Shown here piece by piece: positions 43,269 through 54,319 of a stretch of 64,000 nucleotides of DNA. The position numbers and the translations under genes are program-made. Location: the NCBI GenBank assembly GCA_025517425.1, contig JAOPJY010000001.1:1-64000 (forward strand), in the 5' to 3' direction. Positions within the stretch are counted from its first letter, which is position 1; each line of letters starts with the position of its first letter. The stretch comes from Halobacteria archaeon AArc-dxtr1 (GTDB lineage Archaea > Halobacteriota > Halobacteria > Halobacteriales > Natrialbaceae). Below the pieces are notes generated by a model. That model did no database searches, was not told the DNA's origin, and worked only from the letters and a program-made list of their open reading frames with translations.

Positions 43269-44222
43269 CTACTCGAGGGCCTCGGCCGCGTCGCGTTCGA
43301 CCAGCGGTGTGGCGTTTCGCTCGGGGAGGGTGACGACGTCGTCGTTCGAGAGGGTGTACTCGCGCTCGTCGACGCCGAGGATGGAGCCGACGTCTCGCGT
43401 GATTCGGACGGTGACGCGCTCGATATCTGCGCCCGTCTCGGACGAGACGGTGTTTGCCGAGCGCTCCTGGGATTCGCCGGCCGACGTGTTTTGTGAGTCG
43501 TCCGACGATGCGTCCGAACCCGAGACGGATTCCGGTGTCGGGTCGGCCGGCGCTTCAGACCGCTCGGCCGGCGCCGGCCCCTCGCCGCCCATTACGTCGG
43601 CGGCAGTCACGCCCGTCTCCGATCCCGGAACGGCCGACTCTCCGTCAGGGCCGGTCGGCTCAGCGTCCGGAGCGTCGGACTCGCCCGCTTCCGCCGGCGG
43701 CGCAGGCGGCTCTTCCGGCGGAACCGGCGGTGCGTCGGCGTTGGCGCCCGGTTCCACAGTCCCCGCGTCCGGTGTGCTCCCGGCCGTCGCCGATTCGGCG
43801 TCCGGTTCGGGCCCGGCTTCCCTATCGTCCACCGTCGCGCCCTCTAAGACGTCGAGCACGCGGCCCTTGTTGTCTCGGATGTTTCCGACGAGCGTCTCGA
43901 AGAGTTCCTCCTCCTCGGCGGTAAGCCCCTCGGCGTCGGCAGACATGCCGGCCGCCGCGAGGCTCGCCTGCTTGACGAGCTTGCCCATCCGGCGCTCGTA
44001 GATTGCCTCGACGACGTCCTTGGCGGTCTCGATCTCGTCTGTGAGGCGGCTGACTTCCGGCGAGGCGAAGGGGTCGTCGGTGGCTGCGGCCGCGCGGTCG
44101 CGCTCGGCCTCTAAGTCGGCGATGTAGTCGCCGACTTCCTGGTAGAACGACGGGCGGAGCTGCTGGAGGCTATCCGTCCGGCGCTCTTTGCTCTGGACCG
44201 TGCGCAGCTCGTCTAAGTTCAT
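43269..44222 (-). CDS. DNA replication factor GINS (Gins51-type)
   Basis: A 317-residue protein. The helical A domain (about 1-140) is MNLDELRTVQSKERRTDSLQQL, then SFYQEVGDYIADLEAERDRA. A long disordered linker (about 140-260) rich in Pro, Ala, Asp and Gly precedes a small B domain (VTVRITRDVGSILGVDEREYTL). This A-linker-B order is the Gins15/Sld5-like form of archaeal GINS. It overlaps priS by 4 bp. GINS forms the CMG helicase with MCM and Cdc45/RecJ. Confidence 0.85.
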   Translation of the reverse strand: MNLDELRTVQSKERRTDSLQQLRPSFYQEVGDYIADLEAERDRAAAATDDPFASPEVSRLTDEIETAKDVVEAIYERRMGKLVKQASLAAAGMSADAEGLTAEEEELFETLVGNIRDNKGRVLDVLEGATVDDREAGPEPDAESATAGSTPDAGTVEPGANADAPPVPPEEPPAPPAEAGESDAPDAEPTGPDGESAVPGSETGVTAADVMGGEGPAPAERSEAPADPTPESVSGSDASSDDSQNTSAGESQERSANTVSSETGADIERVTVRITRDVGSILGVDEREYTLSNDDVVTLPERNATPLVERDAAEALE

Positions 44223-45394
44223 TCTTTCTCCTTCTCGGCGCGGCCGCGAGCCATGAGGAACATGGCGACGTACTCTGGGAGTGACTGGTCACCCTCTGAG
44301 ACTGTAAAGATATCGCCCCCGAGTTCGATCTCGCCGCCCTGATCGACGTCGACGGTAATCTCGTGGCCCGTGAACGTCTCGGGGACAGCGTCGACCAGCG
44401 GGTCGAACGCGTCGAGGTCTTCACGGGCGATACGCCGGGTTTCTAGGGCGCTGCCGCCGTGGAGACTCCCCGGCAGCCGGATGAGCCGGTTCGTGTCGGT
44501 CGTCACCGGCTCGTCGATCGGGGCGTTGTCGCGTTCGACCGCGAGCGCGGCGAAGCGCTCTGCGAGCTGGGCGACTGCGGTGTGGACCGTGACGTTGCCC
44601 GCCTCGAGCTCGCTGCGGTTGTTCCTGGCGGCGGCGAGCGTCGCCTGCGCTTTCCCCTCACCGATGCCGTCGAACTCGCGGAGCCGATCGATTGCCGCCT
44701 CCGCCTCGAGTTCGAGGAGGTCGTCGACGAACGCCATGAAGTGGTCGTGGGTCCGCGCGCCCCAGCCGCCGTCGATCCGGAGCGTTCGGCGCTCAGTCGG
44801 CGTCTTTCGGCCGAGTCCGGCGACCGTCTCGGTCTCGATCAGCTCCTCGAAGTCGAGGCCGATCCCGCGGACGTAGTCGACGATCTCGCGGCGGTGTTCT
44901 CGCTCTAAGTGCCGGACGCACTCGTCTCTGACGTGAACGTGGTAGCCTCTGCCCCCGGAGAAGACGACTTCGAGGTCGGTAAAGCCGAAGTCGTCTTCCA
45001 GAAAGTCGAGCAGCCGTCGCAGGGCGTCCTGGCACTTCGCGAGCATCTGGGCGTAGCTGTCCTCGCCGAGGGTGACCGAGGGGAGGTGGTCGGCGTCTAA
45101 GTCGAAGACGAGATCCGAGGAGCGCCAGTCTTTCTCGCTCATCGACCCAGCACCGGGGTCCCGATAGCGCCCCGCAGAGAAGTAGACGTGCTGGGGGCGC
45201 TTGCGGACGAGAAACTCGGAGAGGTCGCCGAGTTCGAGTAGCGAGCGGTGGCGAACCATCGTCGTCCCTGGCCCGTCCGTCCAGGGGATGAATCCCCACT
45301 CGCGCTCGTTTGCGTCCGGCGGCGGCGTGATCTCCGTGCGGCGGTAGTGATCCCGGAACCGCCCTCGGAGGTACGCTCTCGTCCGTTCTTCCAT
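44219..45394 (-). CDS. priS: DNA primase small (catalytic) subunit PriS
   Basis: A 391-residue archaeal-eukaryotic primase. The catalytic metal Asp pair lies in LVFDLDADHLPS, with SGGRGYHVHVRDE as the substrate site and TTDTNRLIRLPGSLHGGSAL as the C-terminal nucleotide-binding motif. The N-terminal MEERTRAYLRGRFRDHY is typical, and start is ATG 45392-45394. It synthesises RNA/DNA primers with PriL. The gene precedes the GINS gene in an operon, an order common in haloarchaea. Confidence 0.96.
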   Translation of the reverse strand: MEERTRAYLRGRFRDHYRRTEITPPPDANEREWGFIPWTDGPGTTMVRHRSLLELGDLSEFLVRKRPQHVYFSAGRYRDPGAGSMSEKDWRSSDLVFDLDADHLPSVTLGEDSYAQMLAKCQDALRRLLDFLEDDFGFTDLEVVFSGGRGYHVHVRDECVRHLEREHRREIVDYVRGIGLDFEELIETETVAGLGRKTPTERRTLRIDGGWGARTHDHFMAFVDDLLELEAEAAIDRLREFDGIGEGKAQATLAAARNNRSELEAGNVTVHTAVAQLAERFAALAVERDNAPIDEPVTTDTNRLIRLPGSLHGGSALETRRIAREDLDAFDPLVDAVPETFTGHEITVDVDQGGEIELGGDIFTVSEGDQSLPEYVAMFLMARGRAEKEKE

Positions 45395-46805: not shown

Positions 46806-48245
46806 CTAGCCGATTGGATTCGGGTTCGGGAGCGAGCGGTGCTCGCGCGGCGGGAGCAGGTAGTGGCCCCACTGGGAGACCGTGATGTACTGGAGGATGC
46901 CGTTGTTCTGGCGCCGGCCGACGGACAGTCCAATGCGGTCGTCGCCGTCGAGTCCCTCCTGAACGAACTCCTCGCCGGCCATCGCCGTCCTGAGACGGCG
47001 ATACTCGCCGATATCGCGCTGGAGGGAGATGAAGTGCATGCCGGCCACGTCGTCGTCCGTCGAGTTGATGTCCCGACGTAGCAGTAACGGTTCACCGTCT
47101 TCGCGCTCTCGGGCGAGTTTCTGGGCGTGGCCAACGATTCCGTCCATCTCGGCGTGTTCGTCGATCAGATCGGCGACGTTGAGCGCACCGGTCTCGGTCT
47201 CGATGTGCTGGCCGTACGATCCGACGTCGCCCGTCGTGGCGTGGTCGGGGCTGAACATCCTCGCGATCCGACCGCTGTGCTCGTTGTCCTCGAACCAGAT
47301 GTGTAAGTCGAGTTCGAGTGATTCGACGTGCTGAGTCGTTCCGCCGGCGAAGGGGCCGTCCTCGATGGTCACGCGGTCTTCGGTCGCCTGACTGGCGCGA
47401 AACCCCGACCGGAAGCCCATGAAAAACGGGGCCTCCTCGGGAACGGGCGCTCCGTCCGGGATTCCCTCGAGACCGTCCTGGTGGTCCGCCGGCAGGCCAG
47501 GGCCGACGAATCCGGTTCGCCGTTTCGTCCGTTCGAAGACCTTCTCGAGGGTCGCGTCCATCTCCTCACCGTTGAGTTCGTCGAGGGCACCGAACAGCGC
47601 CTCTTCGACGGCTAGCACGACAGTAGGGTCGTCGCTCGCGAGGTGTAACGCCGCGTCGTGGGTATCGATTCCGACGTCGTCAGTCGGTTCGATCGACGAC
47701 AGCAGCGTCGGCTCGGGGAGATCGACGTGCTCGGTAAGGGGTTCGTCGAACCGGTCGAAATACGCCGGCGTGTATCCGATGGTGAACAGGATCCCGTCGG
47801 TGCTCCACGCCACAGCGCGTTCGACCGCACAGAAGGCACGCTCGAGGTCCTCGCGAGCGTCCGGGTCGTCTGGCTCGGCCACCAGCGAAAGGTCGAGCAG
47901 GACGTGATGTTCGGGTGGGAGCACGTTCCCGTCGTTGTCGGTTCCCAACACGTCGTTCCAGACGTGCTGACCGTCCGGCAACGACGTCGGATCGTCGACA
48001 CCTGTCGGTGCGTTCAGATCAGACTCGTCGTCTCCAGTCGAACCGGTATCATCGGGGGTCGAATCGTCGGCTCCGTCGGACCGGCGGTCCTCACCGGCCT
48101 CGAGACAGGCTGAAAGTGCCGAAACGCCTCCCACGGCAACGGCGGATCGAGCGAACGCCCGCCGTGAGAGGGTCGTTTTGCCGGCGCAGGACTGGCTGTC
48201 GTCGTTGCCGTGCACATGGGATCGGTCGTCGTCGGGAGCCGTCAT
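46806..48245 (-). CDS. Tat-exported DyP-peroxidase-like lipoprotein
   Basis: A 479-residue protein. SRRAFARSAVAVGGVSALSAC is a twin-arginine lipoprotein signal. The mature part is an alpha+beta barrel-like sequence with DyP-like segments: GPFAGGTTQHVESLELDLHI, a possible proximal heme His H373 in VGHAQKLARER followed by LLLRRDIN, and HFISLQRDIGEYRRL. The GxxDG motif of classical DyPs is not clear. It lies 10 bp after the amine-oxidase-like gene and is surely cotranscribed. The two may work as a pair at the cell surface. Confidence 0.65.
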   Translation of the reverse strand: MTAPDDDRSHVHGNDDSQSCAGKTTLSRRAFARSAVAVGGVSALSACLEAGEDRRSDGADDSTPDDTGSTGDDESDLNAPTGVDDPTSLPDGQHVWNDVLGTDNDGNVLPPEHHVLLDLSLVAEPDDPDAREDLERAFCAVERAVAWSTDGILFTIGYTPAYFDRFDEPLTEHVDLPEPTLLSSIEPTDDVGIDTHDAALHLASDDPTVVLAVEEALFGALDELNGEEMDATLEKVFERTKRRTGFVGPGLPADHQDGLEGIPDGAPVPEEAPFFMGFRSGFRASQATEDRVTIEDGPFAGGTTQHVESLELDLHIWFEDNEHSGRIARMFSPDHATTGDVGSYGQHIETETGALNVADLIDEHAEMDGIVGHAQKLAREREDGEPLLLRRDINSTDDDVAGMHFISLQRDIGEYRRLRTAMAGEEFVQEGLDGDDRIGLSVGRRQNNGILQYITVSQWGHYLLPPREHRSLPNPNPIG

Positions 48246-48255
48246 TTCAAGCGTC

Positions 48256-50268
48256 TCAGTACCCTAGGAGTCGAATCTGTTTGTTCGTCGCGAAGTTCGA
48301 CGTACCGGAGGGGTACGGCATCTGATCGGTGGCACCCTGGATGAGCAACCAGACGATGACGCGCTCGCCCTGAATCGGATCGCCGTCGACGTACTGGGCC
48401 GGGTGGTACAGCTCCGACTGCTCCGCCTCGTCGACGCGCCGGTGTGCCGACGCCTCGCCAGGCCCAATCTCGTCTTCGTCCCGGGTGACGACGACCAGTT
48501 CCATGTCGTCGTCGAGTGGAACCTCGATCGTCTCCGGTCCGTCCGGGTTGCTAAAGCGGGCGACCATTCCACCTGCACCCTCGACGTAGAACTCCTCGTC
48601 GGGGTGACCCCACTCCTCGCCGTCGAAGAGTTCGATCTCGACGCCGTCTTCGGTCCCAGGAGTTACGTCCATCGCCTGGCAGGAGGTGTAGTGTTGGAGG
48701 ACCGGTTGGACGTACTCGTCGCCGTCCATGTACGCCTCGCTGTCTTCGGTGACCATGTCGATGTACTCGGTGATGAATCCGGGTCCGGCACGCCTGAACA
48801 GCGGCATGAACACGCCGTCCTCGTAGAACTCGTAGGAAATGTCGTAGTTGTAGGGGCCGTACCGGAAACCCGCGTGGAAGTCGATGCTCTCGACTCCCTC
48901 CGCACCGGTGTGGTAGTGGCCCTTGAGCTGGAAGCCCGACGGCGTACCGTTGTCGGCGTCGAAGTCGAGTTTCCCCATGATTCCCGGCCCGCCAAAGTCA
49001 CGCATGTGGATGTCCCAGAACAGCAAATCCCCGTTGAACATCGTATCGTGGTCCGGGAAGTACCAGTCGAGCGTGTTCCGGCCTTCACGGGGCGGCAGGT
49101 AGTAGCCCGTGTACGTAATCGGGCTGTTCATCGCCTCGAACACCGGCGAACCGTTGAAATCGGCCGAGACGGTAAAGCCCTGGTACTCAGCAGGATCGTA
49201 CTCGATGCTCCAGCCGTCCTGTTCGAACTCCTCGTCGGGCCGTTCGATGCGATGCATCCCGTTGGGGGCGGTGTAGTAGGGGCGTTGTTCGAACTCGACA
49301 TCCGGTACCACACCGAGGACGGACTCGTCGTACGGATCGACCGTCTCGGCAAGTTTCTGTGGCGGGTGTTCGACCTGATTGTCGACGATTCGAACGGTCA
49401 GCAGTTCAGCATCGTCCGCATCCGAGCCATCGATGAAGGCACTGAGAACTCTGACCTCGCCGTCGTCTTTGATGTACTGCACGGAGGTGTTGCCCTCCCC
49501 GTGAGCCAGCCCGAAGTTCCCCATTCCGCCGAAACCGCCGCCGCCGACGCCCTTCCAGGAGGGGTACCAGGTGTACTCCTCTAAGTCGCCGAACTCGTCT
49601 TCGACGTCTGGGTGCTCGTGGATCATCTTCCCGATCGCTATCTGCTCTTCGTCCTGCTCTTTCGTCCACTCGACATCCATTGGATCGGTGATCTCGAGCG
49701 CGAGAATCTCGTCCGTGTATCGATCGATCAGGCCGTACACGACCTGTCGGTCCTCCGCGGTCACGTCGAAGACGGCTTCGTCGGCGTCGTCGTAGAACCC
49801 ACTCCGATCGACGCTAAAGTCGGGACATCCCTGAATGCTGATCGTCTCGATATGATTGTCCAACACTTCGTAGGCCTCGAACGAGACGATCCAGTCGCTG
49901 ACGACGTCGTGAACCTCCGGATCTCGAAGGAGCGCTGTGATCGCCTCTGACTTGCGGTGGGTGTGAATGCGTTCGTACGAATGGGTGTCGAACGATCGAG
50001 CAGGGGCGTAGCCGGCCGTTTCGAGCCGAGGGGACGGCTCCATCTGCTCTGGTTCGTCGTCGTCGCCGTTGTCGTCGCCGTTGCCGTTCCCATTGCCGCC
50101 ATCGTCGCCGTTTCCGCCGTCATCGCCGTTCTCGTCATCGTCACCGAGACAGCCAGCCAGCGCAGCGACACCACCCAAGGCACCCGCTAGCTGTAGATAG
50201 TCACGCCGTGGAACTCTTGACTCGTCGACAGTTGCTATTCTCTGCGAATTGTCATCTCTCTTTGACAT
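48256..50268 (-). CDS. Tat-exported copper-amine-oxidase-like protein with altered active site
   Basis: A 670-residue protein. PRRDYLQLAGALGGVAALAGC is a Tat lipoprotein signal followed by an Asp/Asn/Gly linker. The rest resembles copper amine oxidases: an N-terminal domain with EWTKEQDEEQIAIGKMIHEH, and the core strand YGPYNYDISYEFYEDG that aligns with the topaquinone loop, Y473 taking the modified Tyr position. The usual N-Y-D/E becomes P-Y-N. The Cu HxH site, 51-53 residues on, reads LQH (L524, H526), and the third His is missing. Catalysis by the normal route is doubtful. Family call is by eye. Confidence 0.6.
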   Translation of the reverse strand: MSKRDDNSQRIATVDESRVPRRDYLQLAGALGGVAALAGCLGDDDENGDDGGNGDDGGNGNGNGDDNGDDDEPEQMEPSPRLETAGYAPARSFDTHSYERIHTHRKSEAITALLRDPEVHDVVSDWIVSFEAYEVLDNHIETISIQGCPDFSVDRSGFYDDADEAVFDVTAEDRQVVYGLIDRYTDEILALEITDPMDVEWTKEQDEEQIAIGKMIHEHPDVEDEFGDLEEYTWYPSWKGVGGGGFGGMGNFGLAHGEGNTSVQYIKDDGEVRVLSAFIDGSDADDAELLTVRIVDNQVEHPPQKLAETVDPYDESVLGVVPDVEFEQRPYYTAPNGMHRIERPDEEFEQDGWSIEYDPAEYQGFTVSADFNGSPVFEAMNSPITYTGYYLPPREGRNTLDWYFPDHDTMFNGDLLFWDIHMRDFGGPGIMGKLDFDADNGTPSGFQLKGHYHTGAEGVESIDFHAGFRYGPYNYDISYEFYEDGVFMPLFRRAGPGFITEYIDMVTEDSEAYMDGDEYVQPVLQHYTSCQAMDVTPGTEDGVEIELFDGEEWGHPDEEFYVEGAGGMVARFSNPDGPETIEVPLDDDMELVVVTRDEDEIGPGEASAHRRVDEAEQSELYHPAQYVDGDPIQGERVIVWLLIQGATDQMPYPSGTSNFATNKQIRLLGY

Positions 50269-50972: not shown

Positions 50973-51129
50973 TACCACGACGTAACAGCGACGTCAATAT
51001 AATTCCACCGGCAGCAGGGTGTCTACGGGTCGACGGTACGGATACCGATGGTCGACTCACCTTGCATACGACGGCACCGTCGGCGCCGAACCGACGACGC
51101 TACCACGGTGGTTCCCCAACTGGTGGTCG

Positions 51130-51597
51130 ATGGGATTCGAACTCCGCGATCACACCGCCGACGTCGGCGTCGCCGCGACCGGCGCGGACATTGAGTCGGT
51201 CTTCGCCGCCGTCGCCGACGGACTGGTTGCCGCCTCCTGTGAGGACGTTCCGGCCGACGTGGGAGACCGCTTTTCGGTCTCCGTCACGGCCGAAAACCGC
51301 GAAGCGCTGCTGTTTGACTACCTCGACGAACTCATCTACCAGCGCGACGTTCGGGAGGTGATGCCGGTCGACAACCGGGTCAAGACGATCGAACAGGACA
51401 GTGACGAGACCCCGCCACACCACACTGACGAGACGGCCGAGCGCGAGGTCGACGCATCCCTCTCGATCGAAGCCAGCGCCCGCGCGATACCACTCGATCG
51501 CATCGACGCCCGCGAGGTCAAGGCGGTGACGTACTCCGAGATGCGACTGGAGCCCGTTGCGGACGGCTGGGAGGCCTACGTCGTCTTCGACGTCTGA
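51130..51597 (+). CDS. Archease
   Basis: A 155-residue archease: MGFELRDHTADVGVAATG at the start, SVTAENREALLFDYLDELIYQRDV, then AREVKAVTYSEMRLE. The metal/Asp residues of the N-terminal DHTAD motif are present. An acidic insert (DSDETPPHHTDETAE) lengthens the family's usual 140 residues. Archease activates the RNA ligase RtcB, which lies 1.3 kb downstream on the same strand. Start ATG 51130; the open frame extends upstream without family sequence. Confidence 0.93.
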   Translation: MGFELRDHTADVGVAATGADIESVFAAVADGLVAASCEDVPADVGDRFSVSVTAENREALLFDYLDELIYQRDVREVMPVDNRVKTIEQDSDETPPHHTDETAEREVDASLSIEASARAIPLDRIDAREVKAVTYSEMRLEPVADGWEAYVVFDV

Positions 51598-51655
51598 CTC
51601 GATCGGTAGCCGAACCAGTTCGTTTTTTCGCGCGGGCAGCGTACCGAACGATGTC

Positions 51656-52756
51656 ATGTGCGTATTTCGCCCCGAATGGGGGTCGTCGCTCGGACGCAGA
51701 CTCGTCGGTATCGTCGTCGCATCGGTCGCCCTGTTCGCTCTGTCGGGGACGGCAAACGCACACGAGGAGTACGTCGTCGACGAGGAGCGCGACGTTTCCG
51801 TCGGGGAATTCTTCGGTGATGCCCTCGCTGACCCCATGGTCGTCGCGCCCCTGGCTGTCGGCGGGTTGGCGGTGCTCGTCGTCGGCTTGGTCTACCTGCG
51901 CTACCAGCCGTTCTCGCGGGATCTTGCTGCCTTCCGGGCCGCGATGGCCGAGTACCACAGCTATGTCCCCTGGCTCCTGCGCATCTCGCTTGGCATTCCG
52001 CTGATTGGCGCCGGCTTTGCGGGCTACTTCATCAGTCCCGCTCTGGAGGTAGAGCTGCGGATTCTGCAGGTCGCACTCGGCTTTCTCCTGCTGTTCGGGC
52101 TGGCTACTCGGGTCGTCGCACTCTGTGCGCTGGCGACCTACCTCGTCGGCGTCGCAATATGGCCGATCCTCTTTCTCCAGTTCGAGTTCGTCGGCGGCCT
52201 GCTCGCGCTCGCGCTCGTCGGCAGCGGCAAGCCAAGCGCAGATCACGTCCTCCAGCGCGTCTCCGGCAGCCCCGAGACCGTCTACGGCCGGTTCGACGTC
52301 GTCTATGGGCCAGCTCGCTCGTTCCAGTCCTGGATCGAACCCTACGCACGGTATATGCCGACGGTTACCAGAGTCGGGCTCGGTCTGACCTTCATCTACC
52401 TTGGCGCGACCCAGAAGCTGCTCCAGCCCGGCCTCGCTCTCGCGGTCGTCGACCGGTATGACCTGACGGCCGTCGTCCCCGTCGCGCCCGAGCTGTGGGT
52501 CCTCGGCGCCGGACTGTCGGAGGTCACCCTCGGGATCGTACTCATCGCCGGCCTGTTCACTCGCGCGAGCGCCGCGACGGCGATCGCGATCTTCACGCTT
52601 ACCCTCTTTGCCCTCCCCGACGATCCGGTTCTCGCCCACGTGGCGCTGTTCGGGATGGCGTCCGTGCTGCTGATCACCGGCGGTGGCCCTGCCGCCCTCG
52701 ACAACCGGATCCAGGCGGCCGATCGGGACACCGCGTTCCGGCTGCCGACCCTCTAA
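51656..52756 (+). CDS. DoxX-like multi-helix membrane protein
   Basis: A 366-residue membrane protein. A signal-like helix (LVGIVVASVALFALSGTANA) ends in an Ala-x-Ala cleavage site and AHEEY. About eight further helices follow, in two DoxX-like halves (VPWLLRISLGIPLIGAGFAGY; PTVTRVGLGLTFIYLGATQKLL). DoxX/DoxD proteins belong to thiosulfate:quinone oxidoreductase and other redox systems. A role here is not known; its place between archease and rtcB may be chance. ATG 51656 begins MCVFRPEWG. Confidence 0.8.
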   Translation: MCVFRPEWGSSLGRRLVGIVVASVALFALSGTANAHEEYVVDEERDVSVGEFFGDALADPMVVAPLAVGGLAVLVVGLVYLRYQPFSRDLAAFRAAMAEYHSYVPWLLRISLGIPLIGAGFAGYFISPALEVELRILQVALGFLLLFGLATRVVALCALATYLVGVAIWPILFLQFEFVGGLLALALVGSGKPSADHVLQRVSGSPETVYGRFDVVYGPARSFQSWIEPYARYMPTVTRVGLGLTFIYLGATQKLLQPGLALAVVDRYDLTAVVPVAPELWVLGAGLSEVTLGIVLIAGLFTRASAATAIAIFTLTLFALPDDPVLAHVALFGMASVLLITGGGPAALDNRIQAADRDTAFRLPTL

Positions 52757-52855
52757 TGTGGCGACTGGGGCGGCTTCGAGGACCGACGGTCGGACATCGA
52801 TCTCCGCCGCCTCTACGAAGGAACTTCTTTCAGCGTCGGCGTCGGATTGTTGGGT

Positions 52856-54319
52856 ATGACCGAAACGTTCGACGCCGGCGACGTCACGCTCGAGCGAGTA
52901 CGCGAGTTCGTCTGGGAGGTCCCCCAAGAAGGCGAAATGCGCGTCCCCGCCCGAGTGCTCGCGAGTCGCTCGCTCTTAGAAGAGATTGCCGAGGATAAGA
53001 CCCTAGAACAGATCACGAACACGACCCACCTTCCGGGGATCACGAACTACGCGATCTGTATGCCCGACGGCCACCAAGGGTACGGCTTTCCCGTCGGCGG
53101 CGTGGGCGCGATGGACGCCGAGAACGGCTGTATCTCGCCGGGAGCGGTTGGCTATGATATCAATTGCGGCGTCCGGATGATGCGGACGAACCTGACCTAC
53201 GACGACCTGAAAGGCCACGAGGAGGAACTCGTCGACTCCTTGTTTACCAACATTCCGTCAGGGCTCGGCGGCGGCGGGGTCGTCGAGGCGGGCGTCGATA
53301 CTGTCGAGGAGATCCTTGCTCGTGGTGTCGACTGGGCGCTCGAGCACGGTCACGCCGTCGAGGAGGACCTGCTCCACTGCGAGGACGAGGGAATGCGGGA
53401 GGGGGCCGACCCCGACAAGGTGAGCCAGAAGGCCAAGGATCGGGGCAAGAACCAGATCGGCTCGCTTGGCTCGGGCAATCATTTCCTCGAGGTCCAGCGC
53501 GTGACGGACGTCTTCGACGACGAGGTGGGCGACGCCTACGGCCTCTCCGAGGACCAGATTGTCGTCCTCATCCACTGTGGCTCTCGCGGGCTGGGCCACC
53601 AGACCTGCAACGACTACCTTCGCCAGATCGAACAGCAACATCAGGGCCTGTTGAACCAGCTTCCCGACAAGGAGCTCGCCGCGGCGCCCGCGGGTTCGCA
53701 GCTCGCGGAGGACTACTATGGCGCGATGAACGCCGCAATCAACTTCGCGTGGGTCAACCGCCAGCTCATCATGCACCGCACCCGGAAGGTCTTCGAGCGG
53801 GTCTTCGACCGTTCGTGGGAGGAAATGGAGATGCACCTGCTGTACGACGTGGCTCACAACATCGCAAAGAAGGAAGTACATACAGTAAACGGCGAGCAGC
53901 GCGAACTCTACGTCCACCGCAAGGGTGCGACCAGGGCGTTCCCGGCAGGACACCCCGAGGTTCCAAAAGCGTATCGCGATGTCGGACAGCCCATCATCAT
54001 TCCGGGAAGCATGGGTGCTGGCAGCTACGTCCTTCGCGGCGGCGAGCATTCGATGGATCTCACGTTCGGCTCGACCGCCCACGGTGCCGGCCGGCTGATG
54101 AGCCGTACACAGGCAAAAAACGAGTACTGGGGCGGTGACGTCCAACAGGAGCTCGAGGATCAACAGCAGATCTACGTCAAGGCTCAGTCGGGTGCGACCG
54201 TTGCGGAGGAGGCCCCGGGCGTCTACAAGGACGTCGACGAGGTCGTCCGCGTCTCTGACGCACTCGGCATCGGTGACAAGGTCGCGCGGACATTCCCCGT
54301 CTGCAATATCAAAGGGTGA
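52856..54319 (+). CDS. rtcB: RNA-splicing ligase RtcB
   Basis: A 487-residue RtcB with no intein. Metal and GMP residues lie in CMPDGHQGYGFPVGGVGA, GYDINCGVRMMR (Cys), GSGNHFLEVQ, LIHCGSRGLGHQ and SMGAGSYVLRGGEHSM; the guanylylated His lies in FGSTAHGAGRLMSR. The enzyme joins tRNA exon halves, sealing 2',3'-cyclic phosphate to 5'-OH ends with GTP. Start ATG is 52856. Archease upstream would aid guanylylation. Confidence 0.97.
   Translation: MTETFDAGDVTLERVREFVWEVPQEGEMRVPARVLASRSLLEEIAEDKTLEQITNTTHLPGITNYAICMPDGHQGYGFPVGGVGAMDAENGCISPGAVGYDINCGVRMMRTNLTYDDLKGHEEELVDSLFTNIPSGLGGGGVVEAGVDTVEEILARGVDWALEHGHAVEEDLLHCEDEGMREGADPDKVSQKAKDRGKNQIGSLGSGNHFLEVQRVTDVFDDEVGDAYGLSEDQIVVLIHCGSRGLGHQTCNDYLRQIEQQHQGLLNQLPDKELAAAPAGSQLAEDYYGAMNAAINFAWVNRQLIMHRTRKVFERVFDRSWEEMEMHLLYDVAHNIAKKEVHTVNGEQRELYVHRKGATRAFPAGHPEVPKAYRDVGQPIIIPGSMGAGSYVLRGGEHSMDLTFGSTAHGAGRLMSRTQAKNEYWGGDVQQELEDQQQIYVKAQSGATVAEEAPGVYKDVDEVVRVSDALGIGDKVARTFPVCNIKG

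Follow-up and report, generated by a model that had tools for sequence, protein, structure and literature searches.

A haloarchaeal family of predicted copper amine oxidase fold lacks the copper ligands and, in one clade, is paired with a DyP-related protein

The window analyzed here, a stretch of 64,000 nucleotides from the Halobacteria archaeon AArc-dxtr1 (contig JAOPJY010000001.1, positions 1 to 64,000), carries two adjacent genes on its minus strand, on which all features of the pair given below also lie. Gene A (48256..50268) encodes a 670-amino-acid Tat lipoprotein that, judging from the open reading frame, a structure model, and profile alignment, has a copper amine oxidase (CuAO) fold without the canonical copper ligands. 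Gene D (46806..48245), whose ATG follows the stop codon of A after 10 bp, encodes a 479-amino-acid Tat lipoprotein of the family DUF7405 (PF24152, E = 6e-141), which is related to DyP heme peroxidases. The stretch from the twin-arginine motif to the lipobox cysteine covers residues 21 to 40 in A (50149..50208; R21, R22, and C40) and residues 28 to 47 in D (48105..48164; R28, R29, and C47). The original prediction had described both the adjacency and the two Tat lipoprotein signals; since these arginines and cysteines are invariant in the paired homologues described below, lipoprotein export of both proteins is well supported at the level of sequence, and A and D would be anchored in the membrane at the cell surface. 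Elsewhere in the window, the genes for Gins51 and the DNA primase small subunit overlap by a few bases at 43269-45394, an ordinary archaeal replication pair, and archease, DoxX-like, and RtcB genes stand in a row at 51079-54319, with archease and the RNA ligase RtcB near each other.

Direct sequence searches of Pfam, NCBIfam, and the PDB, as well as profile searches of the PDB, returned nothing for protein A, so its family assignment is based on fold and profile alignment. The CuAO model PF01179 matched neither A nor any of 35 relatives at the Pfam cut-off; a distant relative with 26% identity (locus L174) scored E = 0.044, short of the cut-off. Many weak matches of A (below about 50 bits) were confined to the signal peptide and the acidic linker and were discarded. 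A structure model of A built from 16 natural homologues (pLDDT 64, pTM 0.70) was then compared with the PDB using Foldseek, and all 50 matches listed were CuAOs (best E = 1.8e-13), with Z scores among the matches listed of up to 20.3 over residues 211 to 670. The global superposition on CuAOs is loose (TM 0.35 to 0.40, rmsd about 17 Å), so that no single-residue geometry can be read from it, and the active-site loops 390-429 and 454-472 are poorly modeled, the latter having a pLDDT under 50. Independently of the model, hhalign alignment of the 59-member A family with a CuAO profile placed residues 465 to 495 on the topaquinone loop of Escherichia coli TynA with a score of 34.5 (P = 0.004), which none of 200 column-shuffled CuAO profiles reached (maximum 25.5). 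Weaker alignments, mostly collinear, flank this loop on both sides; hhalign in global mode was uninformative. A CuAO-like core had originally been proposed on the basis of an ungapped block around Y473 that was lined up by eye, and both the predicted fold and the profile alignment bear out this proposal. Our search for a canonical CuAO elsewhere in the source genome found none, and among 295 genomes sampled from the phylum, no relatives of A turned up beyond the order.

From the ungapped profile alignment and the shuffle control it follows that Y473, in the motif Y473-N-Y475 (48844..48852), occupies the position of the topaquinone precursor, and a tyrosine is present there in 53 of the 59 family members. 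The T-x-x-N-Y-D/E context of CuAOs is absent, being replaced by P-Y-N in A and its clade and by an arginine after the tyrosine in distant members. We also considered Tyr475 as the topaquinone tyrosine, which would leave N-Y-D intact at the cost of a two-residue gap, and rejected it because distant members align without gaps with TynA through Y473 (GPYRYLIDWNFHDDG versus GNYDYIFDWIFHENG). At the position of the CuAO HxH motif, the family alignment places L524-Q-H526-Y527 (48688..48699), in which the first copper histidine is missing, and at about the position of the third stands D648 (48325..48327), placed by eye within a collinear C-terminal segment. The first reading of A had thus identified its residues correctly, namely, Y473 in a P-Y-N context, L524, H526, and the absence of a third histidine. 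Across the family, position 524 is a histidine in none of the 59 homologues and position 526 chiefly in members of the paired clade, plus a small number of relatives, while the third position is variable and holds a histidine in two proteins, both of which also lack the first two ligands. By comparison, TynA and seven full-length, correctly read haloarchaeal CuAOs keep all three copper histidines, a count that leaves out L122 (wrongly chosen open reading frame) and L134 (truncated). Since the ligands are missing throughout the 59 proteins, A does not represent one broken gene. Compared with CuAOs (PF01179) such as TynA and Arthrobacter AGAO, A thus shares the fold over residues 211 to 670, the tyrosine at the topaquinone position, and collinear segments, but differs in having neither the three copper histidines nor the N-Y-D/E context nor a Pfam match, and in having an insertion with conserved histidines before the tyrosine and a DyP relative as partner. 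By its defining residues, A is therefore not a CuAO; by fold and position of the site, it is homologous to these enzymes and may function as they do.

A different set of residues is conserved in place of the copper site. Specifically, H453, Y473, Y475, and Y527, the last adjoining the former copper-ligand position, are all kept in 53 of the 59 homologues and all lost in the other six. Because these six (L063, L064, L066, L182, L186, and L193) belong to one clade, the joint loss possibly reflects a single event, and the clade is, by sequence, a candidate group of pseudoenzymes. Furthermore, D419, in the motif D419-I-H421 (49006..49014), is invariant in all 59 proteins and is an uncertain candidate for the counterpart of the CuAO catalytic aspartate, as its segment was left unaligned by hhalign and the model has low confidence there. 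The joint retention or loss of the four residues and the invariance of D419 argue for a site under selection. Calling A "degenerate," as was done at first, therefore put the emphasis in the wrong place: the whole family is devoid of copper ligands while holding on to a residue set of its own. Copper in A has probably been replaced by other chemistry. A cofactor-less or differently metallated oxidase, as first proposed, is a hypothesis at this stage. Given that the model is unreliable in both active-site loops, we infer, rather than read from the structure, that D419, H453, Y473, Y475, and Y527 form one active site.

Two further histidine positions lie close to this set. The motif H451-x-H453 (48910..48918), of which H453 is kept or lost together with Y473, and H465 (48874..48876), located in the insertion that precedes the topaquinone-position tyrosine, flank that insertion and are conserved in 46 of the 46 members of the main group. 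Neither these histidines nor the poor conservation of H526 outside the paired clade and a few relatives had been part of the first reading, which had held that homologues with all three copper histidines at other positions would speak against it; no clean case of this kind was found, and the part that stands is the conservation of H451, H453, and H465 upstream of Y473. It is conceivable, if unlikely, that A binds copper or another metal at this relocated site, perhaps with the help of H421, that Tyr473 gives rise to a quinone-type cofactor, and that D removes the resulting H2O2; A would then amount to a CuAO-like enzyme whose metal site has moved. The strict conservation in the main group is consistent with this idea, as is the finding that nickel or cobalt can serve in CuAO cofactor biogenesis in vitro (PMC3382800). 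However, the most distant subfamily retains only H453 of the three histidines, and the geometry of the putative site is unreliable, given the pLDDT under 50 at residues 454 to 472.

For protein D itself, DUF7405 is the only Pfam match. The DyP-like character that had been suggested for it holds at the level of the family: the DyP C-terminal model PF20628 matched 8 of 20 DUF7405 members, and 16 of the top 18 PDB hits of the DUF7405 profile are named DyP or deferrochelatase, each being individually weak (best E = 0.015). The alignment of D with EfeB is collinear and brings H373 (47127..47129) onto H329 and R391 (47073..47075) onto R347, with a spacing of 18 residues in both proteins, which makes them candidates for the proximal heme histidine and the distal arginine, respectively. 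Both are invariant in the 46 DUF7405 proteins examined, in agreement with the earlier suggestion of H373 as a possible heme ligand. D thus resembles DyPs in its C-terminal profile matches and in this histidine-arginine pair, but departs from them at the aspartate of the GXXDG motif, which is absent from all 46 proteins (serine in 26, alanine in 20); in D the motif reads GFRSG, with S280 (47406..47408) aligned to EfeB D235. The predicted model of D has a pLDDT of 35. In some DyPs, arginine and not aspartate promotes formation of compound I (PMC8463360), so peroxidase activity of D would be compatible with its sequence.

The two genes are strictly associated within the clade to which A belongs. 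In 17 of 17 close homologues of A, which span three haloarchaeal families, D follows directly behind A with a gap of 2 to 45 bp. The paired A proteins are monophyletic in a quick tree, and the paired D proteins group together as a single clade inside DUF7405 (100/99). An apparent exception, L035, turned out to be an over-long open reading frame, the real start of D lying 2 bp past the stop codon of A. Among the 11 loci compared, every other neighbor of the pair recurs in at most three, and none of the other 42 A homologues has a D gene directly adjacent. In a distant lineage (G508), however, a DUF7405, a halocyanin, and an A-like gene lie side by side; the deep-branching A-like gene at L174:3373-7629 adjoins DUF7405 and halocyanin genes in an arrangement distinct from that of the clade of A.

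The unpaired relatives of A are found in other contexts, which the paired clade does not share and which had not been noticed at first. A halocyanin-like gene lies within about 2.6 kb of 14 of them, divergently oriented and within 325 bp in 10 of the 14, and three A-family proteins carry a fused N-terminal plastocyanin/azurin-type domain (PF00127; L043:7447-9627, L179:5730-7880, and L185:6082-8271). Five unpaired relatives adjoin BADH-like aldehyde dehydrogenases, an arrangement also present in Haloarcula sinaiiensis, in the same way as tynA adjoins feaB in E. coli. A block of halocyanin, A-family, two aldehyde dehydrogenase, and helix-turn-helix genes is kept at L195 (Haloarcula sinaiiensis pHsi540), L049, L050, L052, and L054. 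Because blue-copper proteins and aldehyde dehydrogenases adjoin these relatives, we infer that A is an aldehyde-forming oxidoreductase. The same neighbors indicate redox chemistry and thereby weigh against the idea of A as a CuAO-fold protein that has lost all catalytic activity and serves in binding or as a scaffold, with D as the working enzyme. Such a role would agree with the disappearance of every canonical copper ligand, with the persistence of the six-member subclade despite its loss of Y473, and with the existence in plants of CuAO branches without the active-site motif (PMC12058724). It is nevertheless improbable in our view, since Y473, H453, Y475, and Y527 persist in 53 of 59 proteins over a large divergence and D419 in all of them.

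Taken together, we tentatively favor, with a probability of roughly 0.45, an exported redox pair in which an oxidoreductase of CuAO fold with a rebuilt site cooperates with a DyP-related heme protein. The active site of A would lie where that of CuAOs does, with the three copper histidines and the N-Y-D/E context replaced by Tyr473 together with His453, Tyr475, Tyr527, and Asp419 and, in most members, His451 and His465. A would most likely convert an amine or an alcohol to an aldehyde, and D probably uses Arg391 instead of the missing distal aspartate. D may then either consume the peroxide made by A or help to activate A by oxidation. Both roles have a precedent in Streptomyces lividans, where the Tat-exported DyP DtpA uses the H2O2 produced by the copper oxidase GlxA and is needed for maturation of GlxA when copper is limiting (PMC4736821). 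As in that system, an extracytoplasmic oxidase would be combined here with a putative Tat-exported DyP relative. GlxA, however, belongs to the copper radical oxidases and carries a Tyr-Cys cofactor, and we rejected a site of this type for A, which has no conserved cysteine besides that of the lipobox. GlxA also differs from A in fold.

A more specific version of cofactor activation, which we regard as quite improbable, is that A carries a tyrosine-derived cofactor that its fold can no longer produce with the canonical copper site, that D carries out this oxidation instead, and that halocyanins accept the electrons in the related subfamilies. Methylamine dehydrogenase, amicyanin, and MauG together provide an amine dehydrogenase, a blue-copper acceptor, and a heme enzyme responsible for making the quinone cofactor. 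The likeness is one of analogy only, as the folds are unrelated, the cofactor derives from tryptophan, and the heme enzyme is a diheme cytochrome and not DyP-like. In CuAOs, quinone formation is the work of copper itself and requires no helper enzyme (PMC3382800). If the version with D as the oxidant were true, a heme-matured dehydrogenase acting on amines or alcohols would have arisen from an amine oxidase in haloarchaea. Finally, that D is chiefly an EfeB-like handler of heme or iron, with A as its surface partner in metal uptake and any peroxidase coupling incidental, appears very improbable: the profile matches to deferrochelatase/EfeB-type DyPs and the near-universal occurrence of DUF7405 in haloarchaea without A (262 of 293 sampled genomes) fit such a role, but no conserved iron-transport gene lies by the pair, and the other contexts of the A family consist of blue-copper proteins and aldehyde dehydrogenases.

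Returning to the favored exported redox pair, the A family represents an archaeal lineage that keeps the predicted CuAO fold, the tyrosine, and strictly conserved alternative residues without the copper site. It makes testable whether the CuAO fold supports other chemistry and whether a heme protein acting as partner can take over from copper. In the literature searched, we found no description of the A family, its pairing with D, or its links to halocyanins, and no mention of DUF7405. The A proteins looked up in RefSeq are annotated as "hypothetical protein," and many DUF7405 proteins are already named "Dyp-type peroxidase" there. The source genome also encodes a second DUF7405 copy (G000:C1:1726921-1727970, locus L001), which likewise reads GFRSG and falls outside the paired clade.
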